Origin: an uncultured Nitrospiraceae bacterium
GTDB taxonomy: Bacteria > Nitrospirota > Thermodesulfovibrionia > Thermodesulfovibrionales > SM23-35
Length of the DNA: 64,000 nucleotides
Assembly: GCA_937138415.1 (NCBI GenBank)
Contig: CAKZPA010000044.1
Span: forward strand, 62,001 to 126,000
Direction of reading: 5' to 3'
Shown: positions 41,387-49,750 of the stretch, piece after piece
Layout: each line of letters starts with the position of its first letter
Numbering within the stretch: position 1 is the first letter of the stretch
The notes under the pieces: model-generated
Told to the model about the DNA's origin: nothing
Seen by the model: only the letters and a program-made list of their open reading frames with translations
Databases searched by the model: none
Translations under genes and position numbers: made by a program

Positions 41387-42574
41387 CTACTGAGATTCGG
41401 GCTTCGAGGAGACGGGGAGGACGAGTTTCGTGGCGAGCACGTCACCCTCGGAGAGCCCGGAGACGATTTCGGTCATATCCTCACCCCTGATTCCCGTCTT
41501 CACGTCGACCTTTTCGACCTTGTTCGGTCCCACGACCCGGTACGCGACCTGCTTCCCTAATTCGAACTTTATCGCGGCATTCGGCGCAACGAGGATATTC
41601 TCCTTCCGGTCCGTGATGATCTTGATGTGCGTCGTCATCTCGGGCCTGAGGAAGGCGCTGTCTTCTTTCGAGACGCGAACGATGGCGAGATAGTACACGA
41701 TGTTCTCCTTCACGACCGGTTGCGGATAGATTTTCTCGATGGAGCCGTGGAACACCTTGTCCGTGAACGTATCGACCGTGTATTCGACCGGCTGCCCCAC
41801 ACGGACGTTCCCGATATCCGTTTCGTCGACGTATATCCACATTTCGAGGAGCGTCGGATCGAGCACCGTCACGAGATTTGCAACTTGGAGTCCCGCGACG
41901 ATCGTTTCCCCTTCCTGAGCCGTCACGTCGGCGACGATCCCGTCAATGGGGGAAAAAATCTTCGTGTAGGTGAGCTTCGTTTCCTGCTGCCTGAGCTGGG
42001 CCGATATGTCCTCGATGTGCGCTTTCGCGATCGCGAGCTGCGTTTCGTATTCGCTCCGGAGTCTTTTCAGGATGGCATCGGTCGCGTCGTACTGGCTCCT
42101 CGCGCGGTCAACGGCATCCTGCGTCGTGAATTCACGTTTCAGGAGTTCGGTTTCCCGTTCGTAGGTGCGTTTTGCGTAGTCCACGTTCGCGGCAGCTTCC
42201 CTGATCCGCTCCGGATACGTGAGTTCGATCTGCGCGAGGGTATTCCGCGCCGCGGTGAGGGACGCCCGCTGCTGTTCGATCGCCCGTTGGATCTCACGGT
42301 CGTCGATGAGCGCGATGAGCTGCCCGCTCTTCACTCTGTCGCCTATCTTGACGTTCATCTTGGTGATCGTCCCCGTTGCGCGCGCACCGATCTTGACGAC
42401 GGCGCCGACTTGCGGCTTGATGATTCCCGTTTGGACGATAATGCCCCGAATATCGCCTTTAGCGACGCGGGCCGTATCGAGGACCTTCGTCGCCGGTTTC
42501 GTGAGGGCTCTGGCGGCGATCAATCCTGCAACGAGGATGGCGATGCCGATGCCGATGACGATCAGTTTTTTCAT
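41387..42574 (-). CDS. Periplasmic adaptor protein (HlyD/MacA family)
   Basis: 395 aa. N-terminal membrane anchor (IVIGIGIAILVAGLIAARAL) without lipobox, lipoyl half-motifs (VVKIGARATGTITKMNVKIGDRVKSGQLIALID in parts and FSPIDGIVADVTAQEGETIVAG), between them a long alpha-helical hairpin (about 75-190), then beta-barrel and membrane-proximal domains. Connects the ABC permeases to the outer-membrane TolC-like channel. The ATG overlaps the stop of the TolC-family gene. Confidence 0.94.
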   Translation of the reverse strand: MKKLIVIGIGIAILVAGLIAARALTKPATKVLDTARVAKGDIRGIIVQTGIIKPQVGAVVKIGARATGTITKMNVKIGDRVKSGQLIALIDDREIQRAIEQQRASLTAARNTLAQIELTYPERIREAAANVDYAKRTYERETELLKREFTTQDAVDRARSQYDATDAILKRLRSEYETQLAIAKAHIEDISAQLRQQETKLTYTKIFSPIDGIVADVTAQEGETIVAGLQVANLVTVLDPTLLEMWIYVDETDIGNVRVGQPVEYTVDTFTDKVFHGSIEKIYPQPVVKENIVYYLAIVRVSKEDSAFLRPEMTTHIKIITDRKENILVAPNAAIKFELGKQVAYRVVGPNKVEKVDVKTGIRGEDMTEIVSGLSEGDVLATKLVLPVSSKPESQ

Positions 42575-43851
42575 CGGTCAGGGACGGGGGGTTCGCATGT
42601 CCTCATTCCGGTGACCCGTTCGAGAACCGCTTTGGAGAGCATCACGCCGAGTTTCGAGCGTACGAGCTGTTCCCGGGAAGCGGCGAGGAAGCTTTCAGCC
42701 TGGATGAGCGCGAGAATGTCTCCCTTTCCCACTTTGTACTCACCGAACGCCTGCGAATAGTTGTGCTCTGCCTGCTGAAGTTGCGTTCTCGCGACCTCGA
42801 GTTCCTTCTGAGCGGTCGCCATGTCTTCGTACGCCTTCCTGACGTCGAGCGAAACGGCCCTCTTCAACTCGTTCAGTGTTTCGACGGATGCGTTTTTCTG
42901 GAACTCCGTCGCGCGATACGTATAAAATTTCCCGAGTTCGAAGATGTTCCAGACGGCCCTCACGGTCGCCGTCTTCTCCTCCCGCGCAAGGGATCTGCTG
43001 ACATCGCCGTCGATGGTGCTGTACGACGCGTCGGCAGAAAACGAGGGGAGGAATGTGCTGCGGATGATGGAAGCGGACTGCTCCTCGATGCGGATCGCGT
43101 ATTCCACTCTCTTTACTTCGGGCCGCTCGAGCGAACGTTGCACGAGCGTTTCGAAATCGGGAAGGGCCGCCACCGGTTCGACGATGGTACCGGTGTCATG
43201 ATCCGTCTCGAGCGGGGACCCGATGAGGGAGTTCAGCTCCGACAGGGCTTTCTTCAAGTCTCCCTGAGCCTGGACAAGGTGAAACCGCGCCTGCTCCAAT
43301 CTCACCGATGCCTGGAGCACATCGGAGAGCCGTGCGACGCCGAACTGATAGCGTCCCGCGGCGACCTCGTGATCCTTTTCCGCGTCCGCGAGCTGAATCG
43401 TTCGCTGCTCGACCGCTTCCTTGTACGCCTGAACGGTGTAGAAAGCGGACTTGACGGCGTACTCGAGATCGAGGAGGGTTTCCTCCACGTCCGCTCCGCT
43501 GCTGTCGAGGTTGAGCCGGGCTATATTTCTCTGCGCCTTTCTTTTCCCCCAATCGAAGAGGGTGTAGCTCAAGGTGAGATCCGCTGTCTGGAACCTCGAC
43601 TCGTCACCCGAAGTGAAAGACCGCCCCTGTGAAAAACTCGCATCGAGCGACGGGAGGTAGGGAGAGAGAGAGGCGCGATAGAGGGCCTCCGAGGCTCTCT
43701 GCTTTTCCAGAGAAGCGCGGTACGAAGGGAGGTTCCGCTTTGCGAGCGAGATCGCCTCGTCGAGCGTGAGTCCGTGCGAAATGACGGATGCAAAAATGAC
43801 GGAGAAAAAAGTCATAATCGGCAGAAATCTGAGAAAAAATGATGCGCTCAT
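42571..43851 (-). CDS. TolC-family outer-membrane efflux protein
   Basis: 426 aa from ATG 43851 with a signal peptide (FFLRFLPIMTFFSVIFASVISHG) followed by LTLDEAISLAKRNLPSYRAS, the standard start of the outer-membrane efflux protein family, and two alpha-helical-barrel repeats (long heptad regions near 130-230 and 330-420). A further ATG at 43893 is in frame but lies at the predicted transcription start. First gene of the five-gene efflux operon. Confidence 0.92.
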   Translation of the reverse strand: MSASFFLRFLPIMTFFSVIFASVISHGLTLDEAISLAKRNLPSYRASLEKQRASEALYRASLSPYLPSLDASFSQGRSFTSGDESRFQTADLTLSYTLFDWGKRKAQRNIARLNLDSSGADVEETLLDLEYAVKSAFYTVQAYKEAVEQRTIQLADAEKDHEVAAGRYQFGVARLSDVLQASVRLEQARFHLVQAQGDLKKALSELNSLIGSPLETDHDTGTIVEPVAALPDFETLVQRSLERPEVKRVEYAIRIEEQSASIIRSTFLPSFSADASYSTIDGDVSRSLAREEKTATVRAVWNIFELGKFYTYRATEFQKNASVETLNELKRAVSLDVRKAYEDMATAQKELEVARTQLQQAEHNYSQAFGEYKVGKGDILALIQAESFLAASREQLVRSKLGVMLSKAVLERVTGMRTCEPPVPDR

Positions 43852-43901
43852 CGTGTATCGTACCTGCCGTTTTTTTAAAAATTGCTTGTGCATTTTTAAA
43901 T

Positions 43902-44165: not shown

Positions 44166-45803
44166 TCACATTCCTGAGCACGGATCCGTCGCAGGGGGAT
44201 CCGACTGCAGACCTTCGTGAATTGAGGAGAGGAGAACCCCGTCGTCGGTGTCGCCGCTCATTTCCCAGAACATCATTCCTCCGAGTTTGTGATACGTAAC
44301 GTAGCGCGCTTTGAACGCCAGTGAACGCGGTTCATCGAACGTCCAGAACGTCCGGGTGGCACCGTCGTAGAGCCATGCGGCCCGGGCGCGGTCGTCCCAG
44401 TAGGGGATGTACCCGTTCGACATGTTTTGCTCTAAATCCCTGTATAACTCGTATCCATTCTCATAGGTACCCGGAGCCCCGCCACCTTTCCTCTGATACA
44501 GACCGTTTTGGGCGCTCTCCACGCCGGTCCAGCCTCGCGCATAGAAGGCGGCGCCAACGAGTATCTTCTCGGCCGGTACCCTGTACCGATCCCGATAGAG
44601 TTTCACCGTTTGATCGACCGACAACGACCATTCGGGATACCCGGGATCCCCCGGTGAGGGGCAGAGATTCGTGTGATGGCCGGTGGTGCCGCTCCAGTCG
44701 CCGTAGAAATCGTATGACATGAGCAGAACGTAGTCGAGATAAGGGTGATTGTCGCTCAACCGATAGTTGTCGGCATACTGTTCGCCGGCGGGCACCGCCG
44801 CGGTCAGGAGGAGATCTTCCCTGCCGATCGCCTTGAACTGCCGGCGGAATTCGGCGACCAAAAGGCCGAAATTCGTTGCGTCATCGATCGAGTGGCGTAT
44901 TCCCTCGTGTCCTCCCGACACAGGGAACTCCCAGTCAAGGTCGAATCCGTCGAAAATGCCGGCTGCAACCGCGTGGCCACCCGCATTGCTCTGCTGTGGA
45001 AGGTTGCCTCGTACGTAGGTGTCGATGCAGGATGTTACGAATGCACTGCGGGTTGCATCCGTCGATGCAGCATCCGAGAAATATGTGGAGCCAAGCCAGC
45101 CACCGATCGAAACGACGATTTTCAGATGTGGATACATCCTCTTGAGTTTCCTGAGCTGGTTGAAGTGTCCCCTCAATGGCTGGCGTGGGTCGTCCGCGAT
45201 TCCGTCGACGCTCTCTTGCGCCGAGTACGGTCTCTGGAAAGCGCTCCATGGGTCGTCGAGCTGGCACGTCACGACCCCTTTCGAATCGGGCTTGGGGATC
45301 GCGAATGCGTAATTGAGGACGGCTAACTTCTCCGCCGATCCGCTCGCCACGACATTTTTGACAAGATATGGCGGCTGTCGATAGATTCCCCACTCGGGGA
45401 AGTATCCCACGATGCGAAGATTGCCCTCGCCGGAGGCATCGGTGGAGGGGTCGCACGTTTGTCTGAAGACCGCTCTCGCTTTCACCCGAGAATGTTTCCG
45501 GCTGGTGCGAAAGGTGACGGGATTCGCCGTTCCGGATACATTGCCCTCCCAATGGTCGAATTCATAGCATGGGTTCGGAACGGCCCTTATGAGGAGAGTG
45601 CGACTTCTCGCGTATCCGAGCGGGGAGACCTCTACTGAGCCGGCGAGGTCGGGAATGGCTTCCGTGACAATGGCGCCGGTGCCTGCCGACGCGGTGCTGC
45701 TCAGAGGCGTTGCCATGAGAGACACTAGGATAAATAAGCAGGCGAAAAAACGCAGCGCATAGCGCTCTCTTGTTCCTGCCCTTGCCGTAAAGTCCCCCAT
45801 CAC
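44166..45803 (-). CDS. Secreted GH18 chitinase-like glycosidase
   Basis: 545 aa. Signal peptide (LRFFACLFILVSLMATPLSSTASA), an N-terminal beta-sandwich-like module of about 80 residues ending with FDHWEGNVSGTANPVTF (Gly-rich, divergent InlB-B-repeat-like), then a full GH18 barrel: RIVGYFPEWGIYRQPPY, KIVVSIGGWLGS, the catalytic FDGFDLDWEF (DxxDxDxE complete), YVLLMSYDFYGDWS and GGMMFWEMSGDTDDG. It should hydrolyse chitin or other beta-1,4-GlcNAc polymers outside the cytoplasm. The start is GTG/ATG at 45803-45800. Located next to a processive GT2 synthase, it may trim a self-made polymer rather than feed on chitin. Confidence 0.92.
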   Translation of the reverse strand: MMGDFTARAGTRERYALRFFACLFILVSLMATPLSSTASAGTGAIVTEAIPDLAGSVEVSPLGYARSRTLLIRAVPNPCYEFDHWEGNVSGTANPVTFRTSRKHSRVKARAVFRQTCDPSTDASGEGNLRIVGYFPEWGIYRQPPYLVKNVVASGSAEKLAVLNYAFAIPKPDSKGVVTCQLDDPWSAFQRPYSAQESVDGIADDPRQPLRGHFNQLRKLKRMYPHLKIVVSIGGWLGSTYFSDAASTDATRSAFVTSCIDTYVRGNLPQQSNAGGHAVAAGIFDGFDLDWEFPVSGGHEGIRHSIDDATNFGLLVAEFRRQFKAIGREDLLLTAAVPAGEQYADNYRLSDNHPYLDYVLLMSYDFYGDWSGTTGHHTNLCPSPGDPGYPEWSLSVDQTVKLYRDRYRVPAEKILVGAAFYARGWTGVESAQNGLYQRKGGGAPGTYENGYELYRDLEQNMSNGYIPYWDDRARAAWLYDGATRTFWTFDEPRSLAFKARYVTYHKLGGMMFWEMSGDTDDGVLLSSIHEGLQSDPPATDPCSGM

Positions 45804-46169: not shown

Positions 46170-47240
46170 TCAATGCCCTTTTTCCCAGACCATCAAACGG
46201 TCCCTGACGATCCATTCTTTCCAGAGGGCTTTCCAGAACAGGTAGAAGTTAAACGGTCTGATCACGAAGAATGCCCATATGGACAAGAGGGTTTCCCTGA
46301 GCATTCCAATCCTGAGACCGGTGACGGAACAGATCAGGACGATAATGAACAGCTCGATCAAGAGAGCTCCGAGGAGCACCGACAATAAATGGGGCGTAAA
46401 GGCATAGACCGCGAATGCGAGGAGCGGCGCCGAGACGCTGTCGAGCAGGTACCCGTAAATAAACCCCGCCAGTTTCACATTCTTGCGCAGCCGATGGACG
46501 GAGATATTTTGGAAGAAGCTCCGATACCACCGCTCGACCTGGGCCTTGAATATCGCGAACGTTGGGGGATCCAAAGGATAACAGTACGCGTCCGGACAAT
46601 AGTGCACGTGGTAGCCGTGAATGAGGAATTCCCAGGTCAGATCCATGTCTTCCGCCATAGTCCTCGCTTTGAATCCGCCCATCTCCTTCAGGTGTCGCAT
46701 TCTGAACACGGAGAAGCAGCCGGACGACACGAGTATCGCGCCCGCGTTCATTTGCGCGGATTTAAAGACCGATAACCCGAACATGTACTCGATGAACCGT
46801 CCCCGCTCCCACAGGGTTTTGATTCTCTGCGGGATGACGAATCCGCAGACCGATGCCGTGCGCTCGTCATTGAAATAGGGGAGCGTTTTCAGGATGGCAT
46901 CTCGGTGCAGTACCGTATCGGCATCGATGGTGACCATCAGATCCGTGTCGATTCCGTCGAGGACATAGTTTTGCGCTGACGCCTTGGTCCCCTGGTTCCT
47001 GTGCGTGCGGACGACCGTCACGCCCTCGGCGGCGGCGAGCTCACCGGTCCGGTCGGTCGAACAATCGTCCACGACGATGATGCGATCGATCGCGACGGAT
47101 TGGTTCTTGACGCTTCTGATCGTGCTCACGATGGTTTTTTCCTCGTTGTAAGCCGGGATAACGACGGTAATGGAGTAGTGCCTATGTGGAGGTTGCGCGA
47201 GCACTTTCGGTTTGAGGCCAAAGAGCCATCGCCAGTTCAT
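46170..47240 (-). CDS. Processive family 2 glycosyltransferase (polysaccharide synthase type)
   Basis: 356 aa from ATG 47240 (AAGGAGAGACC upstream); the longer frame to 47468 is antisense noise. Catalytic features: VVIPAYNEEKTIVSTIRSV, VVDDCSTDRT, TIDADTV (DxD), SGCFSVFRM, MAEDMDLTWEF (acceptor Asp) and QVERWYRSF (QxxRW), the set of processive beta-glycosyltransferases such as PgaC/IcaA, hyaluronan and chitin synthases. Three or four C-terminal TM helices follow. It probably makes and extrudes a beta-linked polymer; GlcNAc is suggested only by the nearby GH18 gene. It overlaps the upstream gene by 4 nt. Confidence 0.9.
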   Translation of the reverse strand: MNWRWLFGLKPKVLAQPPHRHYSITVVIPAYNEEKTIVSTIRSVKNQSVAIDRIIVVDDCSTDRTGELAAAEGVTVVRTHRNQGTKASAQNYVLDGIDTDLMVTIDADTVLHRDAILKTLPYFNDERTASVCGFVIPQRIKTLWERGRFIEYMFGLSVFKSAQMNAGAILVSSGCFSVFRMRHLKEMGGFKARTMAEDMDLTWEFLIHGYHVHYCPDAYCYPLDPPTFAIFKAQVERWYRSFFQNISVHRLRKNVKLAGFIYGYLLDSVSAPLLAFAVYAFTPHLLSVLLGALLIELFIIVLICSVTGLRIGMLRETLLSIWAFFVIRPFNFYLFWKALWKEWIVRDRLMVWEKGH

Positions 47241-47866
47241 GGTCTCTCCTTTTTCACGAGAGACTTCACTCTGTTCAGGTAATCCGTGGGTATTTTCCTC
47301 CCCGCCTGCTTCCAGGCGTCGAGTCTCGTCGGCCCGTAGTGGTAGGCGGTGATGGCGGTATCCACGGATTTGTACCGATGGACCAGGTCCAGGAAATACA
47401 GGTAGGCGAATTGGATGTTCGCGGTTTCGGAGTTCAGGACCTCGTCCGTGCCGGCGATATCTTTGCACGTCGGAAGTCTCTCGAGCACGTCCTGCAATGC
47501 CATTTCGGTCAATCCGGTCGGCCCGTACGACTTGCCGTCGGGATGGACGCCGACGGGCCCTTTGCCGAGGGAGACCATCGCGTCGAAAGACTTCTTCGCT
47601 TCATCGAGGATTGACTTGTCGAGGCTGCTTTCCGCCTTCATGATCGCGTCGAACGCCGGCGGGGATTGTTTCGCGAGTGCGGCCGCGTGGGTATTCGTCT
47701 CCAGTCGCGCGACTTTGCGCCCGATCGCTTCGTCCGGATCGGACCCTTTCATCGTGTTCGTCACGAAAGCGCCGGCGCCGATCAATCCCATGGCAATGAC
47801 GAGTATGGGATACTTGATGAGCGTATGGAGCACTAAACTGCATAACCCTTTCGGTTCAGCGTACAC
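47237..47866 (-). CDS. Membrane-anchored transglycosylase-like (SLT-fold) protein
   Basis: 209 aa from GTG 47866, which is preceded by AGGAGGT at ideal distance. One TM helix (LVLHTLIKYPILVIAMGLIGAGAFV), then a periplasmic part. The C-terminal half has the layout of a lytic transglycosylase: GPTGLTEMALQDVL, NIQFAYLYFLDLVHRYKSVDTAITAYHYGPTRLDAW. The canonical catalytic Glu-Ser pair (ESG) before the GLMQ-like segment is not obvious, so it may be catalytically altered. It may locally open peptidoglycan for polymer export. Five nt after the secreted beta-rich gene. Confidence 0.7.
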   Translation of the reverse strand: MYAEPKGLCSLVLHTLIKYPILVIAMGLIGAGAFVTNTMKGSDPDEAIGRKVARLETNTHAAALAKQSPPAFDAIMKAESSLDKSILDEAKKSFDAMVSLGKGPVGVHPDGKSYGPTGLTEMALQDVLERLPTCKDIAGTDEVLNSETANIQFAYLYFLDLVHRYKSVDTAITAYHYGPTRLDAWKQAGRKIPTDYLNRVKSLVKKERP

Positions 47867-47871
47867 GGTTC

Positions 47872-48330
47872 TTACCTCCTCTTTTTCCAGTCGCCGCCGA
47901 ACGACCACTGGAAGAATGCGACCCCCCTCAGGGTGCTCTTGTCCGATTCATGAAAATAGCCGAAGTATTCCCCGCGGATTCCGATTGCCAGTTCCCCCCA
48001 ATCGTTCACGCTCATGTGAACGGGGTGTTTGAGTTTCAAACCGACCGCGGGCCTTATTCGGTTGTTCCAAAAATCCTCCCGGTGATCCGATACGACCAAC
48101 CCGAGCCCGACAAAGTTGTTCACGATCCACTGCGTGCCGCCCAACCGAGTCCAATCGATGCCCTGTTCGACGTACAGGTCGAGCTTGACGCCTTTCTCGA
48201 TGTCGTTTGAGGTCGAATACGACAGTTCCCCCCACGTCGCCCACGGGTAGCCGAGGATCTCGGCGCCGGACTGCCGGGCGGCGAAACACACACAGATGAC
48301 GGTAAAGATTGCTGCCAGATACTTTTTCAT
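47872..48330 (-). CDS. Secreted beta-rich protein of polysaccharide locus
   Basis: 152 aa from ATG 48330 with GGAGG 6 nt upstream; the frame to 48495 overlaps the promoter and is rejected. Signal peptide (YLAAIFTVICVCFAARQSGA). The mature chain alternates polar and aromatic residues (WGELSYSTSND, KLDLYVEQGIDWTRLG, VGLKLKHPVHMSVNDWGELAIGIRGEYFGYF) in a pattern of beta hairpins and ends with FFQWSFGGDWKK, an aromatic-rich C-terminus typical of small outer-membrane barrels. No family assigned. As the first gene of the synthase operon it may form the outer-membrane exit or a polymer-binding component. Confidence 0.65.
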   Translation of the reverse strand: MKKYLAAIFTVICVCFAARQSGAEILGYPWATWGELSYSTSNDIEKGVKLDLYVEQGIDWTRLGGTQWIVNNFVGLGLVVSDHREDFWNNRIRPAVGLKLKHPVHMSVNDWGELAIGIRGEYFGYFHESDKSTLRGVAFFQWSFGGDWKKRR

Positions 48331-48430: not shown

Positions 48431-48497
48431 TTTATAGAAAGGATTTTCGGACGCGCGGGCAATACTTGAAAAGGGGTAATCTCCGCAGGATACACCC
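48431..48497 (-). promoter_or_regulatory. Conserved promoter/activator motif, copy 1 (synthase operon)
   Basis: In gene orientation: GGGTGTAT (48497-48490), GAGATTA, AGTATTGCCCGC, CCGAAA (to 48445), then TATAAA (48436-48431) as a -10. The 53 nt at 48445-48497 match 49698-49750 at 40 positions with no gap. It ends about 100 nt before the first gene of the synthase operon and also lies upstream of the divergent LuxR-type gene. Confidence 0.75.
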
Positions 48498-48579
48498 GAA
48501 AGGAGGTGTCCGCTGCCCGTATCGTGGTCGCCGCTGCACTTGAATTTGGGCAGTGGATATGCTATGAAAGAAGGCAGAA

Positions 48580-49236
48580 ATGGACGACACCATCTACCGA
48601 CCGGCGACGATCCCAGCTCCCAACGCATTCCTCATTTATCGTCCGGAGGTGAAGATAACGAAGGAAGTGGTTTTCCAGAATCCGGAGGCGCTCCGTATTC
48701 TCACGTACCCCCCTGCGACCGGAAAAGGGAAAGAAGCGTTTCCGGATATCGTCTCCCTCTGTGCGAAATGGAAAAAACTGCTGAAGGAGAAAGTGGATCA
48801 GGCGGAGACATCGGGACGGTCCGCTCCAGGCGAAAAGAGGTCTTCCCCCGTTTTTCTCGAGATGATCAAGAGCGGACGGCGGAGGTACGTGGTACGCGGG
48901 ATGGTACTCCTCGGACAAAAATCGGAGACGAGCGAGGAGAATTACCTGTTCCTCCTCGACCGCATCAGTCCCGAGAAGATCAACATCCCGTTGATCGCGC
49001 GGCAGTGGCAGTTGAGCCCGAGGGAACGAGACATCGTGCGTCTGCTGCTCGAGGACCGCAGCAACAAGGAGATCGCTCATCTCCTCGAGTTGAGCGTTAA
49101 TACGGTGAAGGCGTATTTAAAGATGCTGATGAGGAAGCTGAAGGTGTCGAGCCGGGCCGGCATCGTGTCCTGCGTCCTCACGAAGCAGCCTGCCCCCCAA
49201 ATTGACGAGGGATCCGCCGCATTCGGGGAGCGATAA
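48580..49236 (+). CDS. LuxR-type (HTH) transcriptional regulator
   Basis: 218 aa. N-terminal sensor-like domain (about 15-130; FLIYRPEVKITKEVVFQNPEALRIL looks PAS-like) and a C-terminal GerE/LuxR helix-turn-helix: WQLSPRERDIVRLLLEDRSNKEIAHLLELSVNTVKAYLKMLMRKLKVSSR (seen in parts), with the recognition-helix pattern SVNTVKAYL. No receiver aspartate is present, so it is not a classical response regulator. It is flanked on both sides by minus-strand genes that carry the same 53-nt upstream motif, making it the obvious candidate regulator. AAGAAGG near the ATG is a weak ribosome-binding site. Confidence 0.85.
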   Translation: MDDTIYRPATIPAPNAFLIYRPEVKITKEVVFQNPEALRILTYPPATGKGKEAFPDIVSLCAKWKKLLKEKVDQAETSGRSAPGEKRSSPVFLEMIKSGRRRYVVRGMVLLGQKSETSEENYLFLLDRISPEKINIPLIARQWQLSPRERDIVRLLLEDRSNKEIAHLLELSVNTVKAYLKMLMRKLKVSSRAGIVSCVLTKQPAPQIDEGSAAFGER

Positions 49237-49295
49237 CCCTCTTCCCTGTGAGGTCGAAAACCGAGTCTTCCGCTCTTTCTCCGCTTGGACGATGG

Positions 49296-49619
49296 TTAGA
49301 CGAGAAACTGCAGGCCGACGTGGTAACGGCGATACCGGACCTTATTCGCCCACTTGATCTGTGCGATGACCGGCAGGGTGACGCTCCGCTCAGGCAGAGG
49401 TATCCTGACCTGTACGATCGAGCCTTCCATCGGCAACATTCCCTCGACGCGAAGTTTTATCCCGCCGTCACTCAGATCGAGCAGCGTCACGCTGCCCGAC
49501 AGTTCTTCCGGATAGCGCCCCGTTTCTCCCATGTCAATGGACGGGATAGGACATTCGTGAGCGATTCTCGTGCTCGACCTCTTCTCACGAAAGTTGGTCG
49601 GAGTCGTTTCTCTCTGCAT
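49296..49619 (-). CDS. PilZ-domain (c-di-GMP-binding) protein
   Basis: 107 aa. REKRSSTRI supplies an RxxxR-like motif and LLDLSDGGIKLRVEG the D/NxSxxG motif, the two signature elements that grip cyclic di-GMP; the remaining VQVRIPLPERSVTLPVIAQIKW and YHVGLQFLV complete the six-stranded barrel. GAGGAGG precedes the ATG. Stand-alone PilZ proteins commonly control polysaccharide synthases. Its promoter motif matches that of the synthase operon. Confidence 0.88.
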   Translation of the reverse strand: MQRETTPTNFREKRSSTRIAHECPIPSIDMGETGRYPEELSGSVTLLDLSDGGIKLRVEGMLPMEGSIVQVRIPLPERSVTLPVIAQIKWANKVRYRRYHVGLQFLV

Positions 49620-49683
49620 TGCGTCGCCTCCTCGTCTCGTATTTGGGGGCTCTGGCTGTGGTCGATCCTGCTGACGTCATGGA

Positions 49684-49750
49684 ATTAGTGAAACGAATTT
49701 CGGTGAGGCGGGCAATACTCCAAAAAAGATAATCTCTTCGGAATACACCC
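49684..49750 (-). promoter_or_regulatory. Conserved promoter/activator motif, copy 2 (PilZ gene)
   Basis: In gene orientation GGGTGTAT (49750-49743), GAGATTA, AGTATTGCCCGC, CCGAAA (to 49698), followed at the same distance as in copy 1 by ACTAAT (49689-49684) as a weaker -10. It ends about 65 nt before the PilZ ATG. Confidence 0.75.

Follow-up and report, generated by a model that had tools for sequence, protein, structure and literature searches.

Two copies of one regulatory element, located in the window (the whole 64,000-nt stretch of Nitrospiraceae DNA analysed here), are best read as activator-dependent σ70-type promoter-operators that would be recognised by a PAS-like LuxR-type regulator and would drive a PilZ gene as well as an operon encoding a secreted protein, a lytic-transglycosylase-like (SLT) protein and a family 2 glycosyltransferase (GT2); we put the probability of this reading at roughly 0.72. 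Judged by sequence comparison, the element is an evolutionarily conserved regulatory site and not a coincidence. The operator would most likely be bound by a dimer of the neighbouring LuxR-type protein, which in turn would recruit RNA polymerase to a weak promoter composed of a -35 hexamer, a 17-bp spacer and a -10 hexamer. In the window genome this would lead to expression of the single-domain PilZ protein, a cyclic-di-GMP receptor, and of the secreted/SLT/GT2 operon, while in related genomes the same site would drive PilZ genes (in one case with a diguanylate cyclase gene after it), a Tad/Flp pilus locus and genes of secreted proteins.

Two related copies in one genome

Aligned without a gap on the minus strand (48497-48445 versus 49750-49698), the two copies are identical at 40 of 53 positions, as the earlier note on this DNA had reported, and shuffling places this likeness far above chance: the best ungapped local score between them is 32, compared with a maximum of 16 over 500 Markov shuffles. 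The blocks GGGTGTAT, GAGATTA, AGTATTGCCCGC and CCGAAA are present as given there, and the likeness extends about 9-14 bp further upstream and downstream through about +64. A 43-nt pattern derived from both copies has two matches in the window and none across 100 shuffles. With up to three mismatches it occurs exactly twice in the whole genome (2.11 Mb), namely as the window pair, which is also all that a 67-position profile of both copies returned from this genome at E ≤ 10. Random scatter of the motif, which the note had named as counterevidence, was not seen upon scanning; each strong copy lies between genes and faces one of them, and such copies occur only in genomes that have the LuxR ortholog and, downstream, PilZ, secreted-protein or pilus genes.

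A profile built from the window copies alone (R1) found no relatives at genome scale, its weak matches in L074, L089 and L034 lying at the right places. The single-core pattern GAGATTA-N10-AGTATTGCCC, run with 2 mismatches over 101 genomes, gave scattered, chance-like matches outside the window genome (G000) and was discarded.

Proposed architecture of operator and promoter

One layout recurs in 8/8 known sites, which stem from four genomes of four genera, several of these genomes being fragmented: a 24-bp operator and, after a gap, -35 and -10 hexamers spaced exactly 17 bp apart, the gap amounting to 11 bp except in G017, where it measures 25 bp. The operator consensus of the eight sites, GGGTG...YC....G.G...CC, is partly symmetric. 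Copy 1 on the minus strand comprises the operator GGGTGTATCCTGCGGAGATTACCC (48474..48497, 24 bp, a partial dyad), the T-rich gap CTTTTCAAGTA leading from operator to -35 (48463..48473), the predicted -35 TTGCCC (48457..48462), whose position is conserved in the 8 sites, and the -10 TTCTAT (48434..48439) 17 bp after it, with a predicted start at about 48427. Copy 2, likewise on the minus strand, consists of the operator GGGTGTATTCCGAAGAGATTATCT (49727..49750, 24 bp), the T-rich gap TTTTTGGAGTA (49716..49726), the predicted -35 TTGCCC (49710..49715) and the -10 TTCACT (49687..49692; predicted start at about 49680). Both operators were delimited by pattern, matrices and placement scan, and both gaps as well as the -35 of copy 2 by the placement scan. 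In either copy, TTGCCC falls inside the third of the blocks named above.

For the placement scan the first G of GGGTG was set to 0, pairs of -35 and -10 hexamers were scored, and the downstream positions of G017 were shifted by 14 bp. Among 855 placements scored, the clear winner has the -35 at +35, a 17-bp spacer and the -10 at +58; it was equalled in 0/300 shuffles and remained unchanged with G017 omitted. The hexamers of G017, TTGCAT/TAAGAT, are both displaced 14 bp downstream as one unit, those of G435 read TTTACA/TAATCT or near, and those of G012 TTTACA/TAATGT. Besides the gap lengthened by 14 bp, the G017 site (L074 656-760) contains a second operator-like match offset by 14 bp.

A -10-like hexamer, as previously proposed, is present in both copies; the version that fits all eight copies is TTCTAT/TTCACT and not the overlapping TATAAA. 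The broader claim of an activator site plus promoter holds, a conserved -35/17 bp/-10 arrangement following every copy. A generic scan for promoters with 9 of 12 consensus positions did not list the -35/-10 of the sites, so the predicted hexamers are weak, as expected for an activator-dependent promoter. Relative to the predicted start, the operator (0 to +23) is centred at about -59, a usual position of an activator at bacterial promoters. We infer activation rather than repression, and likewise an action on surface behaviour. A dyad describes the operator only in part, and direct repeats of 14 bp and 29 bp suit it too; the putative 14-bp internal repeat (autocorrelation at shift 14, p 0.0012; 0.043 allowing any shift) is suggestive only. 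Readings of the element as a sigma-54 or sigma-28 promoter were dropped after comparison by eye.

Sites in related genomes and the proposed regulon

A five-site profile run over 177 genomes of the order returned sites of at least 29.5 bits only in the window genome (two), G012 (one), G017 (one) and G435 (four), all remaining matches reaching at most 20.5 bits and the best two of these lying inside coding genes. No further strong site emerged from 396 genomes of the phylum, whereby both the 177- and the 396-genome searches used stricter filters, so that weak copies may be lost. Weak matches of a further profile (R3) in G435 (C42) and G011, both within coding genes, were set aside as chance. Close LuxR orthologs (at least 199 bits), a clade of PilZ proteins (at least 148 bits) and the motif (at least 29 bits) occur in the identical 4/177 genomes, to which the PilZ clade is confined; this co-occurrence is partly circular, the first site of each genome having been found beside LuxR. 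The three extra sites of G435 and the lack of strong sites elsewhere are free of that circularity.

Hold-out tests point in the same direction. With leave-one-genome-out matrices the right site ranks first in every genome's region. A matrix from G012, G435 and G017 places the window sites at ranks 1-2 out of some 128,000 positions, with 16.4 and 15.9 bits versus 7.5 for the runner-up, and a profile made without G435 sequence scores the four G435 sites at 20.8-27.2 bits, the next best in 44 kb being 6.3.

Concerning the genes served, the G012 site is flanked by PilZ and LuxR genes that diverge from it, and a PocR-GAF-GGDEF gene (L073 7391-9391, minus strand) with the family assignment of a diguanylate cyclase comes after PilZ in the same orientation; its product is likely such an enzyme, tying the motif to cyclic-di-GMP synthesis. 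In G017 the site is situated between LuxR and a secreted-protein gene, after which PilZ comes next. In G435, a relative from another family, the LuxR-side site precedes PilZ and then a PKD-domain secreted protein, and the four sites have as their targets the genes of two PilZ proteins and of a PxKF/Ig-like secreted protein as well as a Tad/Flp pilus locus (Flp pilins, a TadV-like peptidase, RcpC, a secretin and a TadA-type ATPase). Since about 400 bp separate the Tad/Flp and PxKF sites from the first clear gene, the target link is looser for these two. A PEP-CTERM-type gene (L124 1679-2032, minus strand) is found just upstream of the PxKF-protein site. Each LuxR-adjacent site of the relatives (G012, G017, G435) points away from LuxR, toward PilZ or a secreted gene. 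The common theme, drawn from PilZ, the diguanylate cyclase, the Tad pilus, secreted proteins and one GT2 operon, is cyclic-di-GMP together with surface functions; the co-regulated programme suggested by the earlier note is supported, though not as one of polysaccharide alone.

The LuxR-type regulator and its PilZ neighbour

The candidate reader of the element is encoded at 48580..49236 on the plus strand and combines a predicted PAS-like N-terminal domain with a GerE helix-turn-helix (HTH; PF00196, 58.7 bits, cut-off 23.5). The N-terminal domain has no match in Pfam, PAS included. A fold model of the protein (mean pLDDT 73.8) has EL222 and VqmA as top Foldseek matches, at TM-scores of only about 0.3-0.36, and suggests a PAS-like sensor at the N-terminus. 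Searching the genome contigs with the protein retrieved unrelated GerE proteins only. Its orthologs in three other genera (52% identity in G012, 42% in G017, E 7.9e-59 in G435) carry the element and have a gene for a one-domain PilZ protein in the vicinity. The homolog of G268 is more distant (140 bits) yet accompanied by neither the motif nor an adjacent PilZ, so the link between LuxR and motif breaks with divergence.

Co-occurrence and position suggest the LuxR-type protein as the reader, the site residing within the divergent upstream region of its gene in the window, G012, G017 and G435. Copy 1, placed by the earlier note upstream of the secreted/SLT/GT2 operon, also stands 83 bp ahead of the LuxR-type gene, which diverges from that operon. 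Because this site is common to the operon and to the regulator's own upstream region, autoregulation is likely.

Copy 2 precedes the gene of a single-domain PilZ protein of 107 aa (49296..49619, minus strand; PF07238, 38.6 bits, cut-off 22.5) with the motifs RxxxR and DxSxxG; RxxxR and [D/N]xSxxG are legible in 5/5 aligned members. PilZ neighbours the LuxR-type gene in the window, G012, G017 and G435, the two not forming one operon. For the PilZ gene of G435 (L089 2487-2520), the start may be a TTG after AGGAG and not the ATG at 2487.

The copy 1 operon and its surroundings

The copy 1 operon opens with an ORF for a secreted protein of 152 aa (47872..48330, minus strand), which has relatives in G002 and G268 and no family in Pfam. 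An ATG near the transcription start predicted for copy 1 (48423 and upstream) shares the reading frame of this ORF and would lengthen it upstream; the shorter start is more likely owing to a ribosome-binding site before MKKYLAA. The SLT ORF (47237..47908, minus strand; PF01464, 26.0 bits, cut-off 21.3) probably has its true start inside this frame, and the GT2 ORF (46170..47468, minus strand; PF00535, 101 bits) probably starts near 47237 (MNWRW...). Against a PgaC-like model the GT2 protein scores 118.7 bits, under the cut-off of 422. As the secreted/SLT/GT2 cluster is also present in G002 and G268, there without the motif, it looks like a recruited target in the window genome.

Downstream of the operon, the minus strand holds ORFs for a secreted GH18 protein (44166-45803; PF00704, 252 bits), a protein that looks TolC-like (42571-43893) and one that looks HlyD-like (41387-42574). 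A GH18-like gene (L149 2161-3381) adjoins the secreted/SLT/GT2 cluster in G268 too. On these grounds, the cluster may serve to synthesise, trim and export a glycan of amino sugars.

Alternative readings

The main rivals of the promoter-operator reading are an RNA leader hairpin and a different reader protein. According to the former, which we consider quite unlikely, the element would form a hairpin GGGUG..YUC-N4-GAG..YCC in a 5' leader RNA, near the transcript start and followed by a U-rich stretch, and would exert control after initiation. The consensus fold of the 8 copies places standard pairs in 93.8% of pair cells, versus 34-67% when slid, and the operator hairpin beats column shuffles on the gene strand (p 0.003-0.007), the other strand giving no structure. 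Within the paired columns, most substitutions are transitions that preserve wobble pairing (8 transitions to 2 transversions, versus 16:25 elsewhere). The same helix, however, contains no double compensatory change in the 8 copies, the invariant TAT block lies outside it, other hairpins differ from copy to copy, and Rfam yielded no match above threshold, one chance match elsewhere falling below it. Most copies are devoid of a convincing promoter upstream of the motif, whereas the -35/17/-10 promoter lies downstream at a fixed position in all and moves as a unit by 14 bp in G017; a hairpin upstream of the conserved promoter would not be transcribed from it. Two further hairpins were discarded: an upstream arm paired with GGGTG, the first such idea, was unsupported, and a CCCC-TTTT-GGGG hairpin of G435 (its helix drawn slightly out of register) is absent from the other copies, folds differing between copies.

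The promoter-operator would stay the same if it were read by the PilZ protein itself, as by MrkH, or by an unlinked regulator, which appears unlikely. The PilZ clade tracks the motif across the 177 genomes as exactly as LuxR does, cyclic-di-GMP dependence would account for the targets, and DNA binding is reported for the PilZ domain of MrkH (PMC5055493). On the contrary, the PilZ proteins of the genomes with the element are single-domain proteins of 100-110 aa without a known DNA-binding part, and the HTH belongs to the LuxR-type protein, in whose divergent upstream region the site lies in all four genomes. A third notion regards the copies as what is left of an ancestral PilZ<-site->LuxR unit after tandem duplication. 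G012 and G435 each have one site flanked by PilZ and LuxR genes that diverge from it; doubling such a unit and deleting one PilZ and one LuxR yields the exact window layout with both sites correctly oriented, and the layout may have arisen by this route. That one copy would as a consequence have little present function is very improbable, given that operator, -35 and -10 positions are kept while the flanks diverged, so that both copies look maintained. Duplication accounts for origin and not for function, and is compatible with the promoter-operator reading.

A more far-reaching proposal, doubtful though conceivable, is that of an undescribed module in which the PAS-like LuxR-type regulator and the single-domain PilZ protein, linked to one shared operator-promoter, constitute a sensing loop. 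Through this loop a small-molecule signal and cyclic-di-GMP would jointly control pili, secreted adhesins and the export of glycans; in transcripts begun further upstream, the site might in addition act as an RNA hairpin.

The promoter-operator reading equips an uncharacterised LuxR-type/PilZ pair with a defined motif of operator and promoter, known from eight sites in four genera, and with a short list of targets. A single purified protein and two short pieces of DNA would then suffice for a direct test of a concrete circuit linking cyclic-di-GMP and surface attachment. The case also illustrates how hold-out tests across genomes can confirm as a regulon a motif first noticed by eye in two places.

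Comparison with known systems

A literature search on LuxR/PilZ direct-repeat or PEP-CTERM promoter motifs returned nothing relevant. Among known regulators, EpsA (TIGR03020), a LuxR-type protein associated with PEP-CTERM and exopolysaccharide, is the top NCBIfam match of the HTH region and shares the exopolysaccharide context, but the match covers the HTH region only, with 42.7 bits versus a cut-off of 170. VqmA and EL222, LuxR-type regulators with a PAS or LOV domain, are the best fold matches of the whole model, whose own sensor is predicted to be PAS-like next to the GerE HTH; identity is 12-19%, the overall TM-score is low and the gene neighbours differ. VpsT and CsgD, LuxR-type regulators of biofilms, are GerE-type HTH regulators of matrix and surface genes with a link to cyclic-di-GMP as well; in contrast to these, the window protein has no receiver domain in Pfam, the cyclic-di-GMP motif of VpsT, W[FLM][TS]R, is absent from its translation, and the CsgD model scores 34.9 bits against a cut-off of 250.

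In Klebsiella, the PilZ activator MrkH (234 aa) and the LuxR-type MrkI regulate type 3 fimbriae (PMC3161979), and the operator of MrkH is a 12-bp palindrome centred at -78.5 (PMC3828302). Both systems feature neighbouring PilZ and LuxR-type genes, ties to adhesion and cyclic-di-GMP, an operator upstream of a weak promoter and, here in G435, pilus genes as targets. MrkH, however, binds the operator itself and has an extra N-terminal domain, whereas the window PilZ consists of the PilZ domain only; the element described here spans 24 bp at about -59 instead of 12 bp at -78.5, and its targets comprise genes for PilZ, the Tad pilus, secreted proteins and GT2 instead of mrkABCDF. The window locus works along similar lines to MrkH/MrkI but is not a member of that system; its motif and regulon appear to be new, built on a known plan.
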